From Anaerolineae bacterium (GTDB lineage: Bacteria; Chloroflexota; Anaerolineae; Anaerolineales; UBA4823), in NCBI GenBank assembly GCA_003130835.1, contig QEXX01000016.1:43950-107949 (forward strand): a DNA stretch of 64,000 nt, written 5' to 3'. Numbering within the stretch: the stretch's first letter is position 1; every line of letters starts with the position of its first letter. The position numbers and the translations under genes are program-made. The notes under the pieces were generated by a model, which worked only from the letters and a program-made list of their open reading frames with translations, did no database searches and was not told the origin of the DNA. Of this stretch, positions 17,633 through 44,247 are shown piece by piece.

Positions 17633-20071
17633 TTAGCATCGAATTCGCTCGCCCTTTGGATCCCAGAGCGGTTCTCTGACCACTTCTGCTCCGACCGGTT
17701 CGCCGAAGAACTCGATCTCGAGACGCGTACCGATCTTCGTATACTCGATGGGAAGATAGGCATAAACGATGCTCTTTTTCACCGAATAGCCATAACCACC
17801 CGAGGAAACCCAACCGATGATCTCTGCTCTTCCTTCTGGGCGAATCGGTTCTTTGCCAAGCGCAATGGTGCGATCATCATCCAAAACAATGCAACAGAGT
17901 TTGCGCTTAAGCCCCTCGGCTTTCTGTTTGAGCAATGCTTCACGGCCGAGAAAATCGCCTTTATCCAACTTGACCGCAAACCCAAGTCCAGCTTCGTAGG
18001 GTGTGTAATCGGGGGTTGTCTCGCTTGCCCAATAGCGATAGCCCTTCTCCAAGCGTAGGCTATCAATGGCTTTGTAACCGGCCGGCACCATACCCAAAGG
18101 ACGACCAGCTTCCCAGAGCACATCCCACAATCGTTGGCCGTATTCCATTGGGCAATAGAATTCCCATCCCAATTCTCCAACGTAGGTAACGCGCATGGCT
18201 TGGCACGGCACATCTCCCACAGCGATCTTCTTGGTGGTCATATACGGGAAGCCTTCGTTCGAGACATCATCTGTGGTTACTTTTTGCAGGATTTCGCGAG
18301 CCTTTGGGCCCCACAAACCGATGCAAGCGTAGGCAGAAGTAATATCCTCCACAATAACTGACCCATCTTCGGGCATGTTCATGCGAATCCACGAGAGATC
18401 GTGTTCACCAAAAGCCGTACCGGTGATAATCCAGAAGCGATCTTCAGCAATGCGTGTGACGGTGAAATCGCACTCAATGCCGCCGCGCTTATTCAGCATC
18501 TGAGTATAGATGACCGTTCCCACTGGGCGATCGATGTCATTGGCGCACAGGTACTGCAAGAACTTCAAAGCCCCCGCTCCGCGCACTTCAAATTTGTTAA
18601 AGGAGGTCTCATCAAACAAGCCGGCGATCTCACGCGTCTTAAGATGCTCATACCCAATGGCACGTGACCAATTATGATGTGCCCAACCTTTTGGTTCATG
18701 GCCATGGCGCGCAAGCGCTTCATGCGGTTTAAACCAGTTCGGGCGCTCCCAACCGGTCTTCTCGCCAAACACGGCGCCTAAATCGCGCAAGCGGTAGTAA
18801 GTTGGCGAGAGGCGCAAAGGCCGCCCACTCATCCGCTCTTCGCCGGGATAGTGAATATCGTAATATTGGGTATAGGTCTCAATTGTGCGGGTGACGGTAT
18901 AATTCATGCTGGCGTAATTCGAACCAAAGCGGCGCACATCCAAACGCCAGACATCATATTCCGGTTGTCCGTCAATGATCCACTCTGCCATCACTTTGCC
19001 GATCCCTCCGGCGCCGGCAAGCCCGTGCGCACAAAAAGCGCATGCCACCCAGAAGCCTTTAACGGCTGTTGGGCCGAGCAAGAATTCTCCATCGGGGGTA
19101 AAACCTTCAGGGCCATTGTAATACATCTTGATTTCGGCTGTCTCGATGGCCGGCACGCGCTTAATAGAATTTTCCATCAGTGGCGTAAAGCGGTCCATGT
19201 CAAACGGCAGCAGTTGATACTTAAAATCTTTGGGAATGCCGTTAAGTCCAAAGGGCATTGGATCACGCTCATACCCGCCGGTCACCAATCCGCCAGTTTC
19301 ACGCCGCCAATAGACCAAAAGGTCGGGATCGCGCAAGGTCGGCATATTCTGCTCCACCCCTGGAATGGGTTTGGTCACAATATATAGGTGCGCCATCGGC
19401 ACAACCGGCAGGAACAGACCGACCATTTTACCGATCTCACCGCCCCATTGCCCAGCGGCATTGACCACGATTTCGGTCTTGATTGAGCCCTTGTCCGTCA
19501 CGACTTCGTCAACGCGCCCATTTTTGAGTTTAATCGCCTCAACATTGGTGTTTTGGAAGATTTGCGCGCCGCGCATTTTGGCTCCAGCAGCTAGAGCTTG
19601 GGTTAAGCCAGATGGATCGATGATGCCATCCGTCGGGGTATAGGCCGCCCCAAGCACGCCATCCGTGCTCATTAAGGGGAACATTTTCTTGGCTTCTTGT
19701 GGGCTGATTAATTCCATCTGCATCCCAAAGGAGCGCGCCATACCCACCAAACGCTTCAAGTCCTCCATCCGTTCCGGGGAAGAAGCCAACCGAATTCCGC
19801 CCACCTCATGCCATTCAGGATCCACGCCCGTCTCATCCTTAAGTTGACGGTATAAATCGGTGCTGTAGAACATCATGCGCGTTAGGTTAGCATCGGAACG
19901 CAATTGTCCAACCAAACCGGCGGAGTGCCAAGTAGAACCGGCGGTCAGTTCATGGCGCTCCAAAATCACGACATCTTTCCACCCCATTTTGGTTAGATGA
20001 TAGGCAATGCTACATCCCCCTACACCTCCACCGATAATCACAACCTGAGCATGGGAGGGTAATTCTGCCAT
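17633..20071 (-). CDS. dimethylglycine/sarcosine dehydrogenase-like FAD oxidoreductase with C-terminal GcvT-type domains
   Basis: 812 aa; VVIIGGGVGGCSIAYHLTKMGWKDVVILERHELTAGSTWHSAGLVG (WHxAG flavinylation-type motif); GcvT-like C-terminus GLGFAVKLDKGDFLGREAL. Confidence 0.92.
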   Translation of the reverse strand: MAELPSHAQVVIIGGGVGGCSIAYHLTKMGWKDVVILERHELTAGSTWHSAGLVGQLRSDANLTRMMFYSTDLYRQLKDETGVDPEWHEVGGIRLASSPERMEDLKRLVGMARSFGMQMELISPQEAKKMFPLMSTDGVLGAAYTPTDGIIDPSGLTQALAAGAKMRGAQIFQNTNVEAIKLKNGRVDEVVTDKGSIKTEIVVNAAGQWGGEIGKMVGLFLPVVPMAHLYIVTKPIPGVEQNMPTLRDPDLLVYWRRETGGLVTGGYERDPMPFGLNGIPKDFKYQLLPFDMDRFTPLMENSIKRVPAIETAEIKMYYNGPEGFTPDGEFLLGPTAVKGFWVACAFCAHGLAGAGGIGKVMAEWIIDGQPEYDVWRLDVRRFGSNYASMNYTVTRTIETYTQYYDIHYPGEERMSGRPLRLSPTYYRLRDLGAVFGEKTGWERPNWFKPHEALARHGHEPKGWAHHNWSRAIGYEHLKTREIAGLFDETSFNKFEVRGAGALKFLQYLCANDIDRPVGTVIYTQMLNKRGGIECDFTVTRIAEDRFWIITGTAFGEHDLSWIRMNMPEDGSVIVEDITSAYACIGLWGPKAREILQKVTTDDVSNEGFPYMTTKKIAVGDVPCQAMRVTYVGELGWEFYCPMEYGQRLWDVLWEAGRPLGMVPAGYKAIDSLRLEKGYRYWASETTPDYTPYEAGLGFAVKLDKGDFLGREALLKQKAEGLKRKLCCIVLDDDRTIALGKEPIRPEGRAEIIGWVSSGGYGYSVKKSIVYAYLPIEYTKIGTRLEIEFFGEPVGAEVVREPLWDPKGERIRC

Positions 20072-21945: not shown

Positions 21946-23682
21946 TCACTGGTCTTCAAAACCCAACTCCCGTAAGGATTGCCTTGCATCGCCTGGAGTG
22001 AGTTTATCTCCTAGCATTTCTTTCCAAAAATTCTCGTCATAACGACGGGAGCGCAAAGGAATGGGTAAAGGCACGCCCCAACCCAACAGCAACACCTCTT
22101 CTTTCGGCTGTAAGTGACTCAACATGCCGCGCAAGGTATCGCGGCCGGCTAGACCAGCCAATACGGCGCGAATGTCGTCATCATCCCCAAGCCAACCCGA
22201 GATGCGAGTGCCCAACTGAGACATCACTTCATCATAGATTTGCGAAGGCCGTTGATCAACGATCAATAAGGTCACATAATACTTGCGCATCTCTCTGGCG
22301 ATGGTGCTGAAGGTCGTCTGGCTGGCTAACTCACGGTTGAGCAATTTGTGCGCTTCCTCAAGAACGATCACCAAGGGGCGCGGCTCATTGGCTCGCGTTG
22401 TGCGATAAGCATCTGTGCGCTTTTCCCAAGCTTCGCGAATACGGCGGGTAAGTAAATTCGAGACAAACAGGTAATCCACATCCTGCTCATAGGGGCCAAA
22501 CGAGAGGATGACATGCTGACCCTGTTCCAACAGGCGCACAATCTCTCCCACGCTATCGGCAGCCGGTTGCTCAACAATATAATCCCGATGAAACAGGATA
22601 CTTAACTTTGAGTGCAACCCTTCGGCTGCCAACGGATGCACACCACTGCGATTTGCCCAGGCTGCCACACTATCGGGTGCCGGCAGCCGCTTGCCATCTT
22701 CGGTCTCGATCATTGCCCCATTGCGCAAGGCACGAAACTCGCGAAACCAATGTTCGGCGCCAAACGAACTGACCAGAGCTTCCAACGTCGTTGGGGTGGT
22801 TTCGCGCAAATTGAGGACACCACTTAATAGCTCGATATCGGCTGGGCGAATATCTTTCATGGCAATTTCAAGGTGAAAATCGGGCGATTGACCGCGAATC
22901 GTGCTTCCCCTCCCCAGCCCAACCACGCGAACTCGAGCTGGAAAACCACTCCTTAAGCCTTTGACCAACATCCCACTATCGGATGCAATATCATCAAAGC
23001 CATATTCATTATGCATATCGAAGACCAGCACCGACGCCCGATTGCGCTTGATCAATCCGGCTAAGAGCAGACGGGTTAGAAAAGACTTCCCGGTTCCAGT
23101 CGCCCCAAAAATCCCAGCCGAACGCTGAATAAAGCGATCCAAGTTGATACACACCGCATGACCGGCTTCGCGCGTGTGACCGACCACAAAGTTCCCTTCA
23201 TCCTCTGGGTCGCCAAAGATTTCAGCAATGTCGCCAGCGGAAGCCAGGCAAACATCAGCATGGTGAGACGGCACCGTCTTCACCGGCAAGATGCCCGGCT
23301 CAGAGCGCAAGCCCTGATCGATTTCCGCTCGCCATTGCCGATAGGCTTGTGTGCCCGGCTCGGGACCACGCTCCAGCATTAAGACCGGCAGGATTTCAAG
23401 ATTGGTAAATAAGGTTTGGGCGCGCAACGATTCAGCGATGGGTGCTGGAAATCGTTCCCCAAGTTGCTCCTCCGCAAAGCGGGGGTCGGTAGCGTGCAAT
23501 TGCAAATTGGTCACCAAACCGTAAAATGTCCAATTCCCACTATAAATTACGACAAAACTGCCCTCTTGCACCTGATCGGCCGGCACGGTCAGGCGAGCGC
23601 GCAAGTTTTCTCTTAGCCCGCCGCCAACAATGTAGCCAATGGTCTGATTTGGTTGTGTTTGATTCGGCAGATTCATTTGCAT
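21946..23682 (-). CDS. herA: HerA-like ATPase/helicase with N-terminal HAS-barrel
   Basis: ORF 21946..23700 trimmed to first ATG; Walker A IFGATGTGKSFLTRLLLAGLI; Walker B LVIVLEEAHKLL; N-term TIGYIVGGGLRENLRARL. Confidence 0.9.
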   Translation of the reverse strand: MQMNLPNQTQPNQTIGYIVGGGLRENLRARLTVPADQVQEGSFVVIYSGNWTFYGLVTNLQLHATDPRFAEEQLGERFPAPIAESLRAQTLFTNLEILPVLMLERGPEPGTQAYRQWRAEIDQGLRSEPGILPVKTVPSHHADVCLASAGDIAEIFGDPEDEGNFVVGHTREAGHAVCINLDRFIQRSAGIFGATGTGKSFLTRLLLAGLIKRNRASVLVFDMHNEYGFDDIASDSGMLVKGLRSGFPARVRVVGLGRGSTIRGQSPDFHLEIAMKDIRPADIELLSGVLNLRETTPTTLEALVSSFGAEHWFREFRALRNGAMIETEDGKRLPAPDSVAAWANRSGVHPLAAEGLHSKLSILFHRDYIVEQPAADSVGEIVRLLEQGQHVILSFGPYEQDVDYLFVSNLLTRRIREAWEKRTDAYRTTRANEPRPLVIVLEEAHKLLNRELASQTTFSTIAREMRKYYVTLLIVDQRPSQIYDEVMSQLGTRISGWLGDDDDIRAVLAGLAGRDTLRGMLSHLQPKEEVLLLGWGVPLPIPLRSRRYDENFWKEMLGDKLTPGDARQSLRELGFEDQ

Positions 23683-23700
23683 AGCCAAACCATGGATCAA

Positions 23701-24315
23701 TTAGGCTGGGTTAAATAACTGGGCATCTGCTAAGCAATGCAACACCCGCAGGAGGGTTGAGGCATCATCCCGCAGCCAAGTGATAATCGCCTGAACGGCT
23801 TGCTGCGACCAATCCGCATGCCCGCTTTGTTGATGAATCCCTTGCGCCCACTGCAAGTGAGCCGCTAAAACCTCGATCATTAAGGGTGAGGTCTCTTGTA
23901 ACAGATGGCGCAAGTAACCCAATCGTCCAGTGGAAGTAAAATTGACAACCTCCTCTGGAGCACATGACACCAGTAAGTCTAAACCCAAGGGCGGTTTTGG
24001 CGGCAACAAATGGAAAATCTGATCGCCCGACCGGTAACCAACCGAGAGGACACGCATCTCTAACGGAACATTGCGATTCAACCGATGATCGCGCACAATT
24101 GCCTCGTCAATTGGGTCAACGGTCGCCAATTGGCGCACAAAGCCATCTTCGGCGATCGAGATGTCAATAATGATGCCATAGACGGCAAACCGGTCGTTTA
24201 AGTCCACGCGCACTAACGCGCCCAACGAAGGTAAATTAGCTTGCGAAACATGACAACCCACCAGGAATTGACGACTGTTGGCACTGAGTAATCGACCAAT
24301 TTGAATTGCACTCAT
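23701..24315 (-). CDS. uncharacterised protein between herA and nurA, HAS-barrel-like N-terminus
   Basis: 204 aa from ATG at 24315: MSAIQIGRLLSANSRQFLVGCHVSQANLPSLGALVRVDLNDRFAVYGIIIDISI; 0-bp/11-bp spacing to flanking genes. Confidence 0.75.
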   Translation of the reverse strand: MSAIQIGRLLSANSRQFLVGCHVSQANLPSLGALVRVDLNDRFAVYGIIIDISIAEDGFVRQLATVDPIDEAIVRDHRLNRNVPLEMRVLSVGYRSGDQIFHLLPPKPPLGLDLLVSCAPEEVVNFTSTGRLGYLRHLLQETSPLMIEVLAAHLQWAQGIHQQSGHADWSQQAVQAIITWLRDDASTLLRVLHCLADAQLFNPA

Positions 24316-24326
24316 CGCATGATATC

Positions 24327-25505
24327 CTATTCCAGAGCGCTTTTCTGCCGCAGGGGTAAATTTTTCAACGCTTGTTTGTGAGAAAGCTGAACTGCAGGGT
24401 ATCCATGACGCTGCAACTCGATCGCCAAAGCGCGCAGAATGGTCTCGCGGTCTTCTGCCCGCACCACGGCTACCTCGTGTGCGCGATGCAGGAGATAGGG
24501 ATATGCATAAGCACCGCTTTGACGACATTGTGAAACCAGTTCGGCGTGAATTCGATCCACATTAAAAGCATCTCTTGCCACCCAAAGAGGCAGCTCTACC
24601 CTTGCCAAACTCATCTCGGTCTCCCTGCCCACCCGTAAATAGAAAAAGCACACTTCACTTTCCTTTGGAAAATGATTCATCAGCGGAGATTGCAAACAAA
24701 AGATGGCTGAACGCTCACCCGGACGCAGGAAACTTCCAAACAGGTCCGCATCCAGAACACCTTTGAAAGGGCGAAAGCGGCGCAAATCCGCCCAATCTTG
24801 GGCGGTTGCCGTTGCGAGTTCCAACAAGCGCACCACATAGGCCGATTCAGGACGGTCTACATAGCCACTGAGTAGAATCCCCTGCTGGCGAAAGGTTTCC
24901 AATGTGTCGCAGTAGATCTGTAACAAGCGTTTCAATTCTCTGCCATTCTCATCGCTGGGTTGATATTCCATCCATAACTCCAAAGGGCCATCCATCAGGG
25001 CAAGCCGCGGCGGCGGTAGCGAGAGGCTGATTTCTAACAAGAGCTTACGTTCCAGCACATCTCGCCGAAAGTTAAACAGCGATTCAATGAACTCGTCGGT
25101 ATCGGAGTACCAAAATTCACTCCGCGAAATTTCTTGCGGCACAGCGTGCAGGGTTTGAGGCAGGGTGATCCCCCCTACGTTAATCATCCCAAAGTACAGC
25201 TCGGCATGACGGTCGGGTAGCATTTGGGATCCATCTGCGGCAGCAAGGTTGAGATGATTTTGAACTGTAGGCAAGGGAAAAACCTGATCCAAAATCGGAT
25301 CAAATGGTTTGGCGCAACGCAGGGTTTTCCCTTCTTGAGCCAGAGCTTGCTCAATCCGTTCATTGAGAAAGTCGCTTTGGTCAGAAAAGCGCTGCAAGGC
25401 CTGCAGGGCGCTTTCACAACGGCGGCGATGACCGTCAGCAGCCTGCTCAATTTGCTGGACAAGGTTTTGAATTTTTGGATACAGTTGCCGGTAATCTACG
25501 CTCAC
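24327..25505 (-). CDS. nurA: NurA-domain nuclease
   Basis: 392 aa; LAAADGSQMLPDRHAELYFGMINVGGI (first acidic motif), RLALMDGPLELWME, FGSFLRPGERSAIFCLQSPL...FFYLRVG; adjacent to herA. Confidence 0.85.
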   Translation of the reverse strand: MSVDYRQLYPKIQNLVQQIEQAADGHRRRCESALQALQRFSDQSDFLNERIEQALAQEGKTLRCAKPFDPILDQVFPLPTVQNHLNLAAADGSQMLPDRHAELYFGMINVGGITLPQTLHAVPQEISRSEFWYSDTDEFIESLFNFRRDVLERKLLLEISLSLPPPRLALMDGPLELWMEYQPSDENGRELKRLLQIYCDTLETFRQQGILLSGYVDRPESAYVVRLLELATATAQDWADLRRFRPFKGVLDADLFGSFLRPGERSAIFCLQSPLMNHFPKESEVCFFYLRVGRETEMSLARVELPLWVARDAFNVDRIHAELVSQCRQSGAYAYPYLLHRAHEVAVVRAEDRETILRALAIELQRHGYPAVQLSHKQALKNLPLRQKSALE

Positions 25506-40415: not shown

Positions 40416-41678
40416 TTACGTAGAGAGGCCTTGGTCGAGTTCTTTCAAATACCAGCGCAAGAAGCGATCGACATTGTATTCCTTATAGGTTGAGAGCGGT
40501 CCGGGCACGTAAGCGCGTGAGTTGACACCTAGTTGCGCGTTTTTGCAAATATCCCAATCTTGCTCGGCAGTCAACTGCCAGAATGGCAAGAGTTTCTCAA
40601 GCTCGTAATCCTTGCCTTCTTCGGCGTTTTGATCGACTAACCAATACATGCGGACTTTGGTAGAGTAGATTCCGTTTGGGGTTAAGCGCACTGTGACTCC
40701 GTGATCGCAACTAGAGTGGTTCCAGAAATTGGGCATGGTGCGAATGCGCAGCGTGCCTACGTCTGGGTCGGGATAATCGCCCATCAAGGGTGCCACCTGT
40801 TTGCCATCCATGGTCTCACTGACATACCCATCGACCAAGGGCGTACGGTTTGCCAAGTACCAGCGCCCTGTATCGGGGTCGGGGAACTCGCTCATGCCGG
40901 TTTTGGTGTGCGTGACAGCTAAGCCGAGCTTTGCCCACTTCTCCTGCGAGCGGGTAGTCACTGCATGAAGCTGCACAGCCACACGTTCGATGGTATCGTC
41001 CTCGTTATAGTGGTCAAAGTTGGCTTTAATATACTGAGGATGGTTGACATTGCAGTGATAGCACTCGCGGTTGTTTTCCCAAACCAGTTTCCAATTCGCC
41101 GGCACTTCGTAGTCGATAATTTTAGCAATCTTGGCACGGTTGAAGCCCTGCGGTTTAGCATAAAAGGCGATTTCTTCATAAGCGGCGTCGAAATCGGGTG
41201 GATTATCGGCGAGACTGATAAAAATCAACCCTTCGACATCACGCACATGCACCGGCCGTAACCCCAATTGAGATTTATCCAACCCATCCTGCATGCCGCG
41301 GTAGGTGATCAAACGTCCGTCTCGGCCATACGTCCATTGATGGTAGGGGCAAATAAAGCGATGCACATGCCCTTCAGGCTCAACGCACACCAACGAGCCG
41401 CGATGGCGACAAACATTGTGGAAAGCTTTTACGGCACCGTCATCGCCGCGAGTGATAATGACGGAGTCGGTATCCAGGTCGTAGAGGAAGTAATCGCCGG
41501 GCTTAGGGATTTGACAGGCATGCCCAGCAAACAACCAACCTCTGCGCCAAAAGACCTCTAGGTCGGCGCGATAAATTAACTCATCGTGGTAGAAGGGGCG
41601 CGGCAAGCCATACCCCTCTGTTCGGGATTGGATCATTTCTTTGATTTTCGCAATTTCTGCTTGTGTAAATGTGCTCAT
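40416..41678 (-). CDS. Rieske non-heme iron oxygenase, GbcA-like (glycine betaine/quaternary amine monooxygenase alpha subunit)
   Basis: 420 aa; Rieske CRHRGSLVC...CPYHQWTYG; mononuclear Fe region NNRECYHCNVNHPQYI. Confidence 0.9.
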   Translation of the reverse strand: MSTFTQAEIAKIKEMIQSRTEGYGLPRPFYHDELIYRADLEVFWRRGWLFAGHACQIPKPGDYFLYDLDTDSVIITRGDDGAVKAFHNVCRHRGSLVCVEPEGHVHRFICPYHQWTYGRDGRLITYRGMQDGLDKSQLGLRPVHVRDVEGLIFISLADNPPDFDAAYEEIAFYAKPQGFNRAKIAKIIDYEVPANWKLVWENNRECYHCNVNHPQYIKANFDHYNEDDTIERVAVQLHAVTTRSQEKWAKLGLAVTHTKTGMSEFPDPDTGRWYLANRTPLVDGYVSETMDGKQVAPLMGDYPDPDVGTLRIRTMPNFWNHSSCDHGVTVRLTPNGIYSTKVRMYWLVDQNAEEGKDYELEKLLPFWQLTAEQDWDICKNAQLGVNSRAYVPGPLSTYKEYNVDRFLRWYLKELDQGLST

Positions 41679-41820: not shown

Positions 41821-44247
41821 TTAAGCACGCAATTTTTCACCTTTTGGATCGACCAGCACGGTAGGCGCGACTGTAGCCTGCACGCGTTGGTCAAACAATT
41901 CTACTTGGAAGGTATTGCCTGCTTTTGCCAGTTCAATTGGTAGATAGGCATATACAATGTTCTTGCCAACCGTAAATCCATAACCACCGCTGCGCACGCG
42001 GCTGATCACTTTACCATCCAGATAGACAGCTTCCCCACCATACACCGGCAACCAATCCTCGCCCTCGAGAGTAAGCGTGCACAGCTTGCGTCGAATACCT
42101 TCCTGTTTGGCTTTCACCAAAGCCTGTTTGCCAATGAAATCGTCTTTCTCAAGATCGACACAAAAACCCAAACCAGCCTCGTAGGGATTTTCGCGCGGGG
42201 TGACATCGCCGGTGAAATAGCGGTAGCCTTTCTCAAGGCGCAAACAGTCCGCCACCTTGTAACCGCACGGCTGCATACCGAATTCCTGTCCGGCTGCCCA
42301 AAGACGATCCCAGACCTGCATGGCGCGTTCCCAAGGGACGTACAATTCCCAGCCCAATTCGCCGATGTAGCTCACCCGCTGAGCTAAAACCTTTGTGCCG
42401 TTGATATTGATCCAAGCAGCGTGCAAATATGGGATGGCTTGGTTAGAGACATCGCTATCGGTCACTTTGGAAAGCGTTTCGCGCGCTTTGGGTCCCCAGA
42501 CCGGGATACACGCCCATTCGGTGGTTATATCACGGATTTCCACCTCACCGTCTGCGGGGTCCTGGTGCATGCGCAGCCAAGCCAGATCGTTGGCGATAAA
42601 GGACGAACCGGTGACAACCCAAAAATGCTCCGCTCCTAAGCGGGTGACGGTCAGATCGGCTTCCACGCCGCCGCGCGTATTCAGGAATTGGGTGTAGATG
42701 GCACTGCCCACCGGGCGGTCAATGTTGCTATCAGCAACGCGTTGCAGCAATGGCAGAGCGCCGGGCCCGCGCAACTCGATCTTACCAAAGGAGGTGAAAT
42801 CGAAGATCGCCACCCGTTCCCGTGCTGCCGTATGCTCAACCCGCAAGCGCTCGAAATAGGGCGGTTTGCCCCAGCCCCACTTGCGCTGATCGGCGCCCAT
42901 GCGGCGGCTTTCCTGACCCGGCTGGAAATAGTTTACGCGCTCCCAACCAAACTTCTCTCCAAACACGGCGCCTAATTCCTGCAAGCGGTGATGCAAGGGT
43001 GACACACGGTGCGGCCTTGCCCATTCGTTCTCATCGTTGGGGAACTTCAGACGATAATAGTACTTCACCCCTTCGCGGGTGCGTTCAGTGGTGTAATAGT
43101 AGCTCGTATAGTAGTTGCCGAAACGGCTGGCTTTGAAAGCATACACATCCCACGATGGTTCGCCATCGATGATCCACTCGGCTAAGAGCTTGCCAATGCC
43201 ACCGGCGCCGCCAAAGCCATTCAAAGACATGCCGCACGCCATCCACAAGCCGCGCACCTGCGGCATCGGGCCGATCATCGGTTGGCAATCCGGTGAATAA
43301 GCGCCCGGATGGCAAATGAGCTTGAGCATCTCGGCGTTCTCCAAGATGGGGATGCGGCGGATGGCGCCTTCCAGCAACTGTTCAAAGCGCTCAAAATCTG
43401 GCGGCAGCGAGGTGTTGCCATGCTCCCACGGCACGCCATCAATCCAGCGCTCTTTGGGATTTGGCTCATAGCCGCCAATCACCAAGCCACCTTGTTCTTC
43501 GCGCAGGTAGATCAGGTTATCGGGGTCGCGCAAGCAAGGCGTTTTGTGGTCAAACTCTTTGCCGGGAATGGCTTTGAGGGCAATATGCTGATGGTCAACC
43601 GGCGTGGTTGGGATGTGTACTCCCGCCATGGCCGCTACCCGCGGCGCCCACAAACCGGCTGCATTGATGACAATCTCGGTGCGGATGGCACCTTTATCGG
43701 TCAAGACGCGATCGATTTCTCCTCTAGGGGTCAATTCAATGCCGGTGACGCGGGTATTGGTGCAGATTTCCACCCCCATCTCTTTGGCAAGCCCAGCGAT
43801 ATGGGTGGTGGTCAGATAGGGGTCCAAGTGTCCATCATCCGGCAGATAAATAGCTCCGTACAAGTCTTTATCGCTCAGAGCCGGCATGATCTTGACCGCC
43901 TCGGCGGGAGTGATGATCTCAACTTCCATGCCAATGCCCTTGGCGCGGCTGACGCTGCGCTGCAATTCCTTAAACTGCTCCGGGCTGGAAGCCACCCGTA
44001 AACTCCCCACCACATTCAACAATCCCAATTGCGTGTATAACTCTACGCTGTACTTACGGATTTGCATCAACGTCTCTGAGGTAGCAAATTGGGTCACCAA
44101 GCCAGCCGCATGCCCAGTTTCACCGCTGGCGATATCCATCTTCTCGAGCAAAACCACATCCGTCCAGCCGCGTTTGGCTAGGTGATAAGCAATGCTCACC
44201 CCAAAAATGCCTCCCCCAATGACAACGACTTGGGCTTGTTCTTTCAC
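41821..44247 (-). CDS. second dimethylglycine/sarcosine dehydrogenase-like FAD oxidoreductase with GcvT-type domains
   Basis: 808 aa; VVVIGGGIFGVSIAYHLAKRGWTDVVLLEKMDIASGETGHAAGLVTQF; C-term GLGFCVDLEKDDFIGKQALVKAKQEGIRRKLCTLTLEG; paralogous to 17633..20071. Confidence 0.92.
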   Translation of the reverse strand: MKEQAQVVVIGGGIFGVSIAYHLAKRGWTDVVLLEKMDIASGETGHAAGLVTQFATSETLMQIRKYSVELYTQLGLLNVVGSLRVASSPEQFKELQRSVSRAKGIGMEVEIITPAEAVKIMPALSDKDLYGAIYLPDDGHLDPYLTTTHIAGLAKEMGVEICTNTRVTGIELTPRGEIDRVLTDKGAIRTEIVINAAGLWAPRVAAMAGVHIPTTPVDHQHIALKAIPGKEFDHKTPCLRDPDNLIYLREEQGGLVIGGYEPNPKERWIDGVPWEHGNTSLPPDFERFEQLLEGAIRRIPILENAEMLKLICHPGAYSPDCQPMIGPMPQVRGLWMACGMSLNGFGGAGGIGKLLAEWIIDGEPSWDVYAFKASRFGNYYTSYYYTTERTREGVKYYYRLKFPNDENEWARPHRVSPLHHRLQELGAVFGEKFGWERVNYFQPGQESRRMGADQRKWGWGKPPYFERLRVEHTAARERVAIFDFTSFGKIELRGPGALPLLQRVADSNIDRPVGSAIYTQFLNTRGGVEADLTVTRLGAEHFWVVTGSSFIANDLAWLRMHQDPADGEVEIRDITTEWACIPVWGPKARETLSKVTDSDVSNQAIPYLHAAWININGTKVLAQRVSYIGELGWELYVPWERAMQVWDRLWAAGQEFGMQPCGYKVADCLRLEKGYRYFTGDVTPRENPYEAGLGFCVDLEKDDFIGKQALVKAKQEGIRRKLCTLTLEGEDWLPVYGGEAVYLDGKVISRVRSGGYGFTVGKNIVYAYLPIELAKAGNTFQVELFDQRVQATVAPTVLVDPKGEKLRA

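Follow-up and report, generated by a model that had tools for sequence, protein, structure and literature searches.

In the window, the 64-kb stretch of DNA analysed here, a gene of 204 codons stands between the genes for the nuclease NurA and the DNA translocase HerA, and the question raised by this locus is whether the HerA-NurA pair works with a third protein. The middle gene (24315-23701) is given the working name MID. The three genes are transcribed head to tail in the order nurA, MID, herA, with gaps of 11 bp (from the nurA stop to the MID ATG) and 0 bp, the MID stop abutting the first possible herA start (Table 1). An earlier note on this DNA had described the middle protein as tightly packed between herA and nurA, and three open reading frames at the coordinates it gave, all on the minus strand, bear this out. 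The herA frame can begin at a TTG at 23700 or at ATG codons 7 or 9 of the frame (about 23682 and 23676), and one of the two ATGs is probably the true start. The MID frame is kept at 28-78% identity among aligned relatives, a conservation that rules out a chance open reading frame.

Table 1. Genes of the nurA-MID-herA operon and their spacing in the window
Feature	Coordinates	Strand	Description	Evidence
nurA	24327..25505	(-)	392-aa nuclease of the NurA family with a GTG start; opens the operon	PF09376
nurA/MID intergenic gap	24316..24326	(-)	11 bp	Sequence read-out
MID	23701..24315	(-)	Predicted standalone HAS-barrel protein, 204 aa, class 1	AlphaFold2, Foldseek and family alignment
herA	21946..23700	(-)	DNA translocase of the HerA/FtsK family, at most 584 aa	DUF87

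The operon lies in an ordinary core chromosome, in a genome that its relatives place in the Chloroflexota. GC content in this setting is 0.46-0.53, the neighbours, read by eye, are housekeeping genes, and a ribosomal-protein cluster is found in the last third of the same window (about 46.7-63.9 kb). No tRNA genes were found in the 64-kb window (1-64000), despite the ribosomal-protein cluster. MID is present in a single copy in its own genome, and mre11 and rad50 are absent beside the window operon.

The window NurA matches PF09376 over residues 87-348 (E 5e-21; 75.7 bits against a cut-off of 21). Residues D91-G-S93, R148, E152 and D172 are invariant in its alignment (A8), and we take the conserved acidic residues (the DGS motif, E152 and D172) to be catalytic. 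A sequence-profile search from NurA reached no solved NurA structure. HerA is a HerA-family ATPase with intact Walker motifs. Its central domain matches DUF87 (E 2e-27; 97.3 bits against a cut-off of 23.2), and the Walker A residues G202, G204 and K205, together with E448/E449, R472, K473, Q483 and R484, are invariant (alignment A6). Its own HAS-barrel match in Pfam is weak (E 0.009). In profile searches the best match is the Thermococcus kodakarensis (T. kodakarensis) HerA (E 1e-60), and when the window HerA is used alone, defence HerAs score about the same as archaeal HerAs. Because of the T. kodakarensis profile match, the mre11-rad50 linkage described below and the core genomic setting, this HerA-NurA pair stands nearer to repair than to defence.

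In Deinococcus and Thermus, too, nurA precedes herA within one operon, and the ATPase motifs of HerA and the conserved acidic residues of NurA are retained in the window. Descriptions of the Deinococcus and Thermus systems give them two genes (PMC9960219, PMC5448004), whereas the window adds a third gene between the two.

Predicted fold of the middle protein

The window MID has no usable family match in Pfam, NCBIfam or PADLOC, as the earlier note had said of it, and scores below the gathering cut-off of the HAS-barrel family PF09378 (25.2 bits). The AlphaFold2 model, made with 45 homologues, is confident (pLDDT 93.9, pTM 0.88) and predicts a barrel at about residues 1-118, with a helical insert at 58-80, followed by a helical C-terminal domain at about 120-197. 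When this class 1 model was compared with the PDB by Foldseek, all 50 listed matches were HAS-barrel chains of HerA or TdpA (best E 5e-6, probability 1.00, query TM about 0.37-0.48 over about 130-145 columns). The model of a second class of MID, described below, has a pLDDT of 88.9, and its top PDB matches are HerA HAS-barrels too (best E 3.6e-7). On these predicted structures, MID of both classes has the HAS-barrel fold. The likeness of the N-terminus to a HAS-barrel, first noticed from the sequence, is borne out by the model and by three cyanobacterial MID orthologues that score above the PF09378 cut-off (32.4, 29.7 and 33.4 bits against 25.2).

The fold is the one found at the N-terminus of HerA itself (PF09378). 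In contrast to HerA, MID is a standalone protein without the RecA-like ATPase and with a helical C-terminal domain of its own, which stands after the barrel where HerA carries its ATPase. Weak HAS-barrel matches were obtained for 20 of 45 class 1 MID proteins (best E 0.005), and searches of the MID profile against PDB sequences gave weak or artificial matches only. The MID profile also matches the HerA HAS-barrels of this clade weakly (hhalign probability 19.5%, E 0.0012, in one comparison), so the relation between the two barrels is remote and rests on the fold and on the cyanobacterial members.

The HAS-barrel domain and the HerA-NurA pair are already known, and the part that seems new is a standalone HAS-barrel as their near-obligate companion. 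In a search of open-access papers, no standalone HAS-barrel protein was found described as a partner of HerA-NurA.

Co-inheritance, gene order and two classes

MID is co-inherited with HerA and NurA and is near-obligate in two phyla. It is present in 172 of 301 Chloroflexota genomes and also occurs in Cyanobacteria, so the triplet is not specific to one strain. Counting strong HerA and NurA matches only, 169 of the Chloroflexota genomes carry both MID and HerA, 3 carry MID only, 6 carry HerA only and 123 carry neither (phi 0.94). The corresponding counts for MID and NurA are 167, 5, 12 and 117 (phi 0.89). All three genes are found in 164 of the 301 genomes, and none of the three in 115. In the cyanobacterial phylum (146 genomes), MID with each partner gives 66 genomes with both, 1 with MID only, 4 with the partner only and 75 with neither (phi 0.93); all three genes are present in 65 and none in 74. 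The Fisher p values for co-occurrence (1e-35 to 1e-72) take no account of shared ancestry and do not count independent events. HerA and NurA occur with no detected MID in four Chloroflexota and three cyanobacterial genomes. Among 101 relatives, MID is found in 85 and NurA in 84, in almost identical sets of genomes, and the sole relative scored NurA-positive and MID-negative (G007) turned out to have a MID after all, a divergent one that stands between its nurA and herA.

The order nurA-MID-herA on one strand is found in 61 of 79 fetched relative loci; the loci had been selected by the presence of MID or NurA, and a locus or contig edge cuts off most of the others. Most of the fetched Chloroflexota show this triplet. 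The cyanobacterial genes mostly lie at a distance from one another, and in one genome (G491) they occupy three separate places. The association of MID with HerA and NurA is therefore not a by-product of linkage. The earlier note had named conservation of the triplet across Chloroflexota and Cyanobacteria as a check, and MID is indeed conserved in both phyla and tracks HerA and NurA, although in crown Cyanobacteria the three conserved genes are mostly non-adjacent. Of the two findings that the note said would refute it, a middle protein that lacks the HAS-barrel fold and a triplet confined to this strain, neither was obtained.

In some genomes, MID is beside herA and nurA is elsewhere, usually next to rad50 (G120, G242, G179, G129, G132, G115 and G138). 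In others, MID is beside nurA and herA is elsewhere (G189, G228, G131 and G437). MID adjoins herA in some genomes and nurA in others, and is therefore tied to both partners. In one genome (G089), a single reading frame runs through MID and HerA without an intervening stop codon (L047:2173-4425, L218:8172-11288), a lone case of in-frame fusion in a fragmented assembly. Several Chloroflexota families keep MID and herA as a pair and have nurA at another place, mostly next to rad50 (L200-L206 with L122-L125, L127-L129, L135 and L138). A loss of MID together with HerA, with NurA staying beside Rad50, was considered for such genomes and rejected, because they keep MID beside HerA elsewhere.

In a tree of 87 sequences, MID falls into two classes that are separated with 100/100 support: class 1, to which the window protein belongs, and class 2. 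Chloroflexota and Cyanobacteria both have members of each, and the two classes are ancient. In class 1 the order is nurA-MID-herA, followed in some lineages by mre11 or rad50. In class 2 the typical order is mre11-rad50-nurA-MID-herA, which groups the same four partner genes as the archaeal mre11-rad50-herA-nurA operon. The window operon differs from the archaeal one in that MID is added between nurA and herA and that mre11-rad50 are not adjacent.

Five cyanobacteria (G401, G404, G420, G452 and G481) carry two MIDs of different class, with at least two NurA and at least two HerA matches, as if two complete HerA-NurA systems coexisted there and were kept as whole sets. No cyanobacterial class 1 MID was found on plasmids. 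Beyond the two phyla, class 2 is found on four haloarchaeal plasmids, in a Sericytochromatia genome and in one genome labelled Acidobacteria. On the haloarchaeal plasmids (NZ_CP119991, NZ_CP084885, CP002989 and NZ_CP099995; L141-L144), MID is followed by HerA. Three haloarchaeal plasmids have the order metallophosphoesterase-SMC ATPase-NurA-MID-HerA, with a phospholipase-D or DEAD-helicase gene ahead, and this plasmid-borne set could serve plasmid repair or defence. A phage or viral origin of MID was rejected, since neither class had a match in a phage collection and class 2 had none in viral contigs.

A proposed third protein at the HerA-NurA junction

MID very probably belongs to the HerA-NurA system as a working part. 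The computed basis for its membership consists of the operon, the fold, co-occurrence even where the genes are unlinked, adjacency with either partner, the one fusion and the frequent linkage to mre11-rad50. The favoured reading, with a probability of about 0.6, makes MID a third subunit of the HerA-NurA DNA-end-processing machine, one without catalytic activity. The earlier note had proposed a third subunit or adaptor, and the genomic context supports this. The structures considered contain HerA and NurA only. The presence of one more gene alongside HerA and NurA throughout two large bacterial phyla, and also on haloarchaeal plasmids, suggests that existing reconstitutions may lack a component, and very probably a part of this break-repair machine has been overlooked. 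The Deinococcus, Thermus and archaeal pairs are described as functional without a MID-like protein (PMC9960219, PMC5448004, PMC12977600), and MID is therefore dispensable for the basic chemistry.

That MID binds its partners, its stoichiometry and position, the bridging, and its effect on resection and strand choice are points that we infer. In known complexes the NurA dimer docks on an exit ring made of the HAS-barrels of the HerA hexamer, and in D. radiodurans HerA these six barrels make up the exit pore and contact NurA by way of acidic residues (PMC9960219). The simplest role for a free barrel that has an added helical domain and is co-inherited with the two proteins would be that of a docking element at the junction of HerA and NurA. 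MID probably docks on HerA through its barrel, and a barrel-to-barrel contact at the NurA-facing ring of HerA is slightly favoured as the mechanism. The MID barrel would pack on or among the HerA barrels at the exit ring, and its helical domain would reach NurA, a contact to which we give even odds. Placed in this way, MID could bridge or clamp the motor and the nuclease and tune the entry of the pumped DNA strands into NurA.

A different role is that of an assembly or loading factor or regulator, in which MID transiently holds the NurA-docking surface of HerA as a competitor or placeholder and times the attachment of the nuclease, with no stable bridge. A barrel alone could compete for the NurA-binding ring, the dependence of NurA binding on acidic HerA HAS-barrel residues in D. 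radiodurans (PMC9960219) fits such competition, and in several lineages MID has stayed next to herA, nurA being found at another place and mostly adjoining rad50. However, other lineages keep MID with nurA and not with herA, and near one-to-one retention with both partners better suits a structural component, which leaves the regulator as an unlikely candidate. MID could also be a platform that couples HerA-NurA to Mre11-Rad50, SSB or RecA loading, its helical domain serving as an outside docking site. Both mre11 and rad50 precede nurA-MID-herA in class 2 operons and follow it in several class 1 lineages, but they are not adjacent in the window and in many class 1 genomes. Moreover, the four-gene operon of archaea is reported without a MID-like protein (PMC12977600), so MID is not required for such coupling in general, and this role is improbable.

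The least probable reading is a HerA-type anti-phage defence locus with MID as its specificity or effector subunit: defence HerAs are structurally related, the hexamer HAS-barrels of SIR2-HerA, DUF4297-HerA and TdpAB resembling the MID barrel, class 2 operons on haloarchaeal plasmids adjoin phospholipase-D or DEAD-helicase genes, and a 2026 study suggests that HerA-NurA may destroy foreign DNA (PMC12977600), but MID is single copy and near-ubiquitous in relatives, has no match in the phage collection (both classes) or viral contigs (class 2), and sits in a core chromosomal setting of ordinary GC with a ribosomal-protein cluster in the window. Unlike the anti-phage HerA complexes, the window has NurA as the nuclease partner. 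PADLOC yields generic HerA-type matches only and no other partner, and neither a dedicated effector gene (SIR2, DUF4297 or TdpB) nor a defence-island setting was found at the locus by PADLOC and by reading the neighbours by eye. Both the chromosomal setting and the lack of effectors speak against a defence role here, and the earlier suggestion of a defence variant finds no support at this locus.

Strand choice and other end-processing genes

With MID as a third subunit of HerA-NurA, strand choice is one activity that it might affect. The way in which the 3' strand escapes HerA-NurA is said to be unclear (PMC9960219), and in a 2026 study the archaeal HerA-NurA cuts both strands and its role in resection is questioned (PMC12977600). 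A MID lodged between the exit ring of HerA and the dimer of NurA might give strand bias by steering one strand off a nuclease site, an unlikely proposal. If true, a both-strand cutter would become, through MID, a genuine resector of 5' ends whose 3' tails are ready for recombination, and many Chloroflexota and Cyanobacteria might process breaks mainly by this route. The role of MID is testable in genetically tractable cyanobacteria. NurA was detected in one of these, Synechococcus elongatus, which served as a control genome.

The genome of the window has short PDDEXK_1 matches only, in frames of 318 and 187 aa (G000:C151:24422-25135 and G000:C38:54109-54540), and no ORF of AddB or RecB size was found in its assembly, which is about 94% complete. 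On these grounds the genome may lack AddAB/RecBCD. Large AddB-like ORFs are somewhat commoner in relatives without MID (6 of 15, against 12 of 86 with it; Fisher p 0.025), the p value being 0.13 once a contig-edge fragment is dropped. The contrast is no more than suggestive of a replacement of AddAB/RecBCD by the HerA-NurA-MID system.

Elsewhere in the window are two long FAD-oxidoreductase genes with similar N-termini (17633-20071 and 41821-44247; 812 and 808 aa). Both resemble dimethylglycine/sarcosine dehydrogenases by eye, and a Rieske-type oxygenase-like gene lies nearby (40416-41678).
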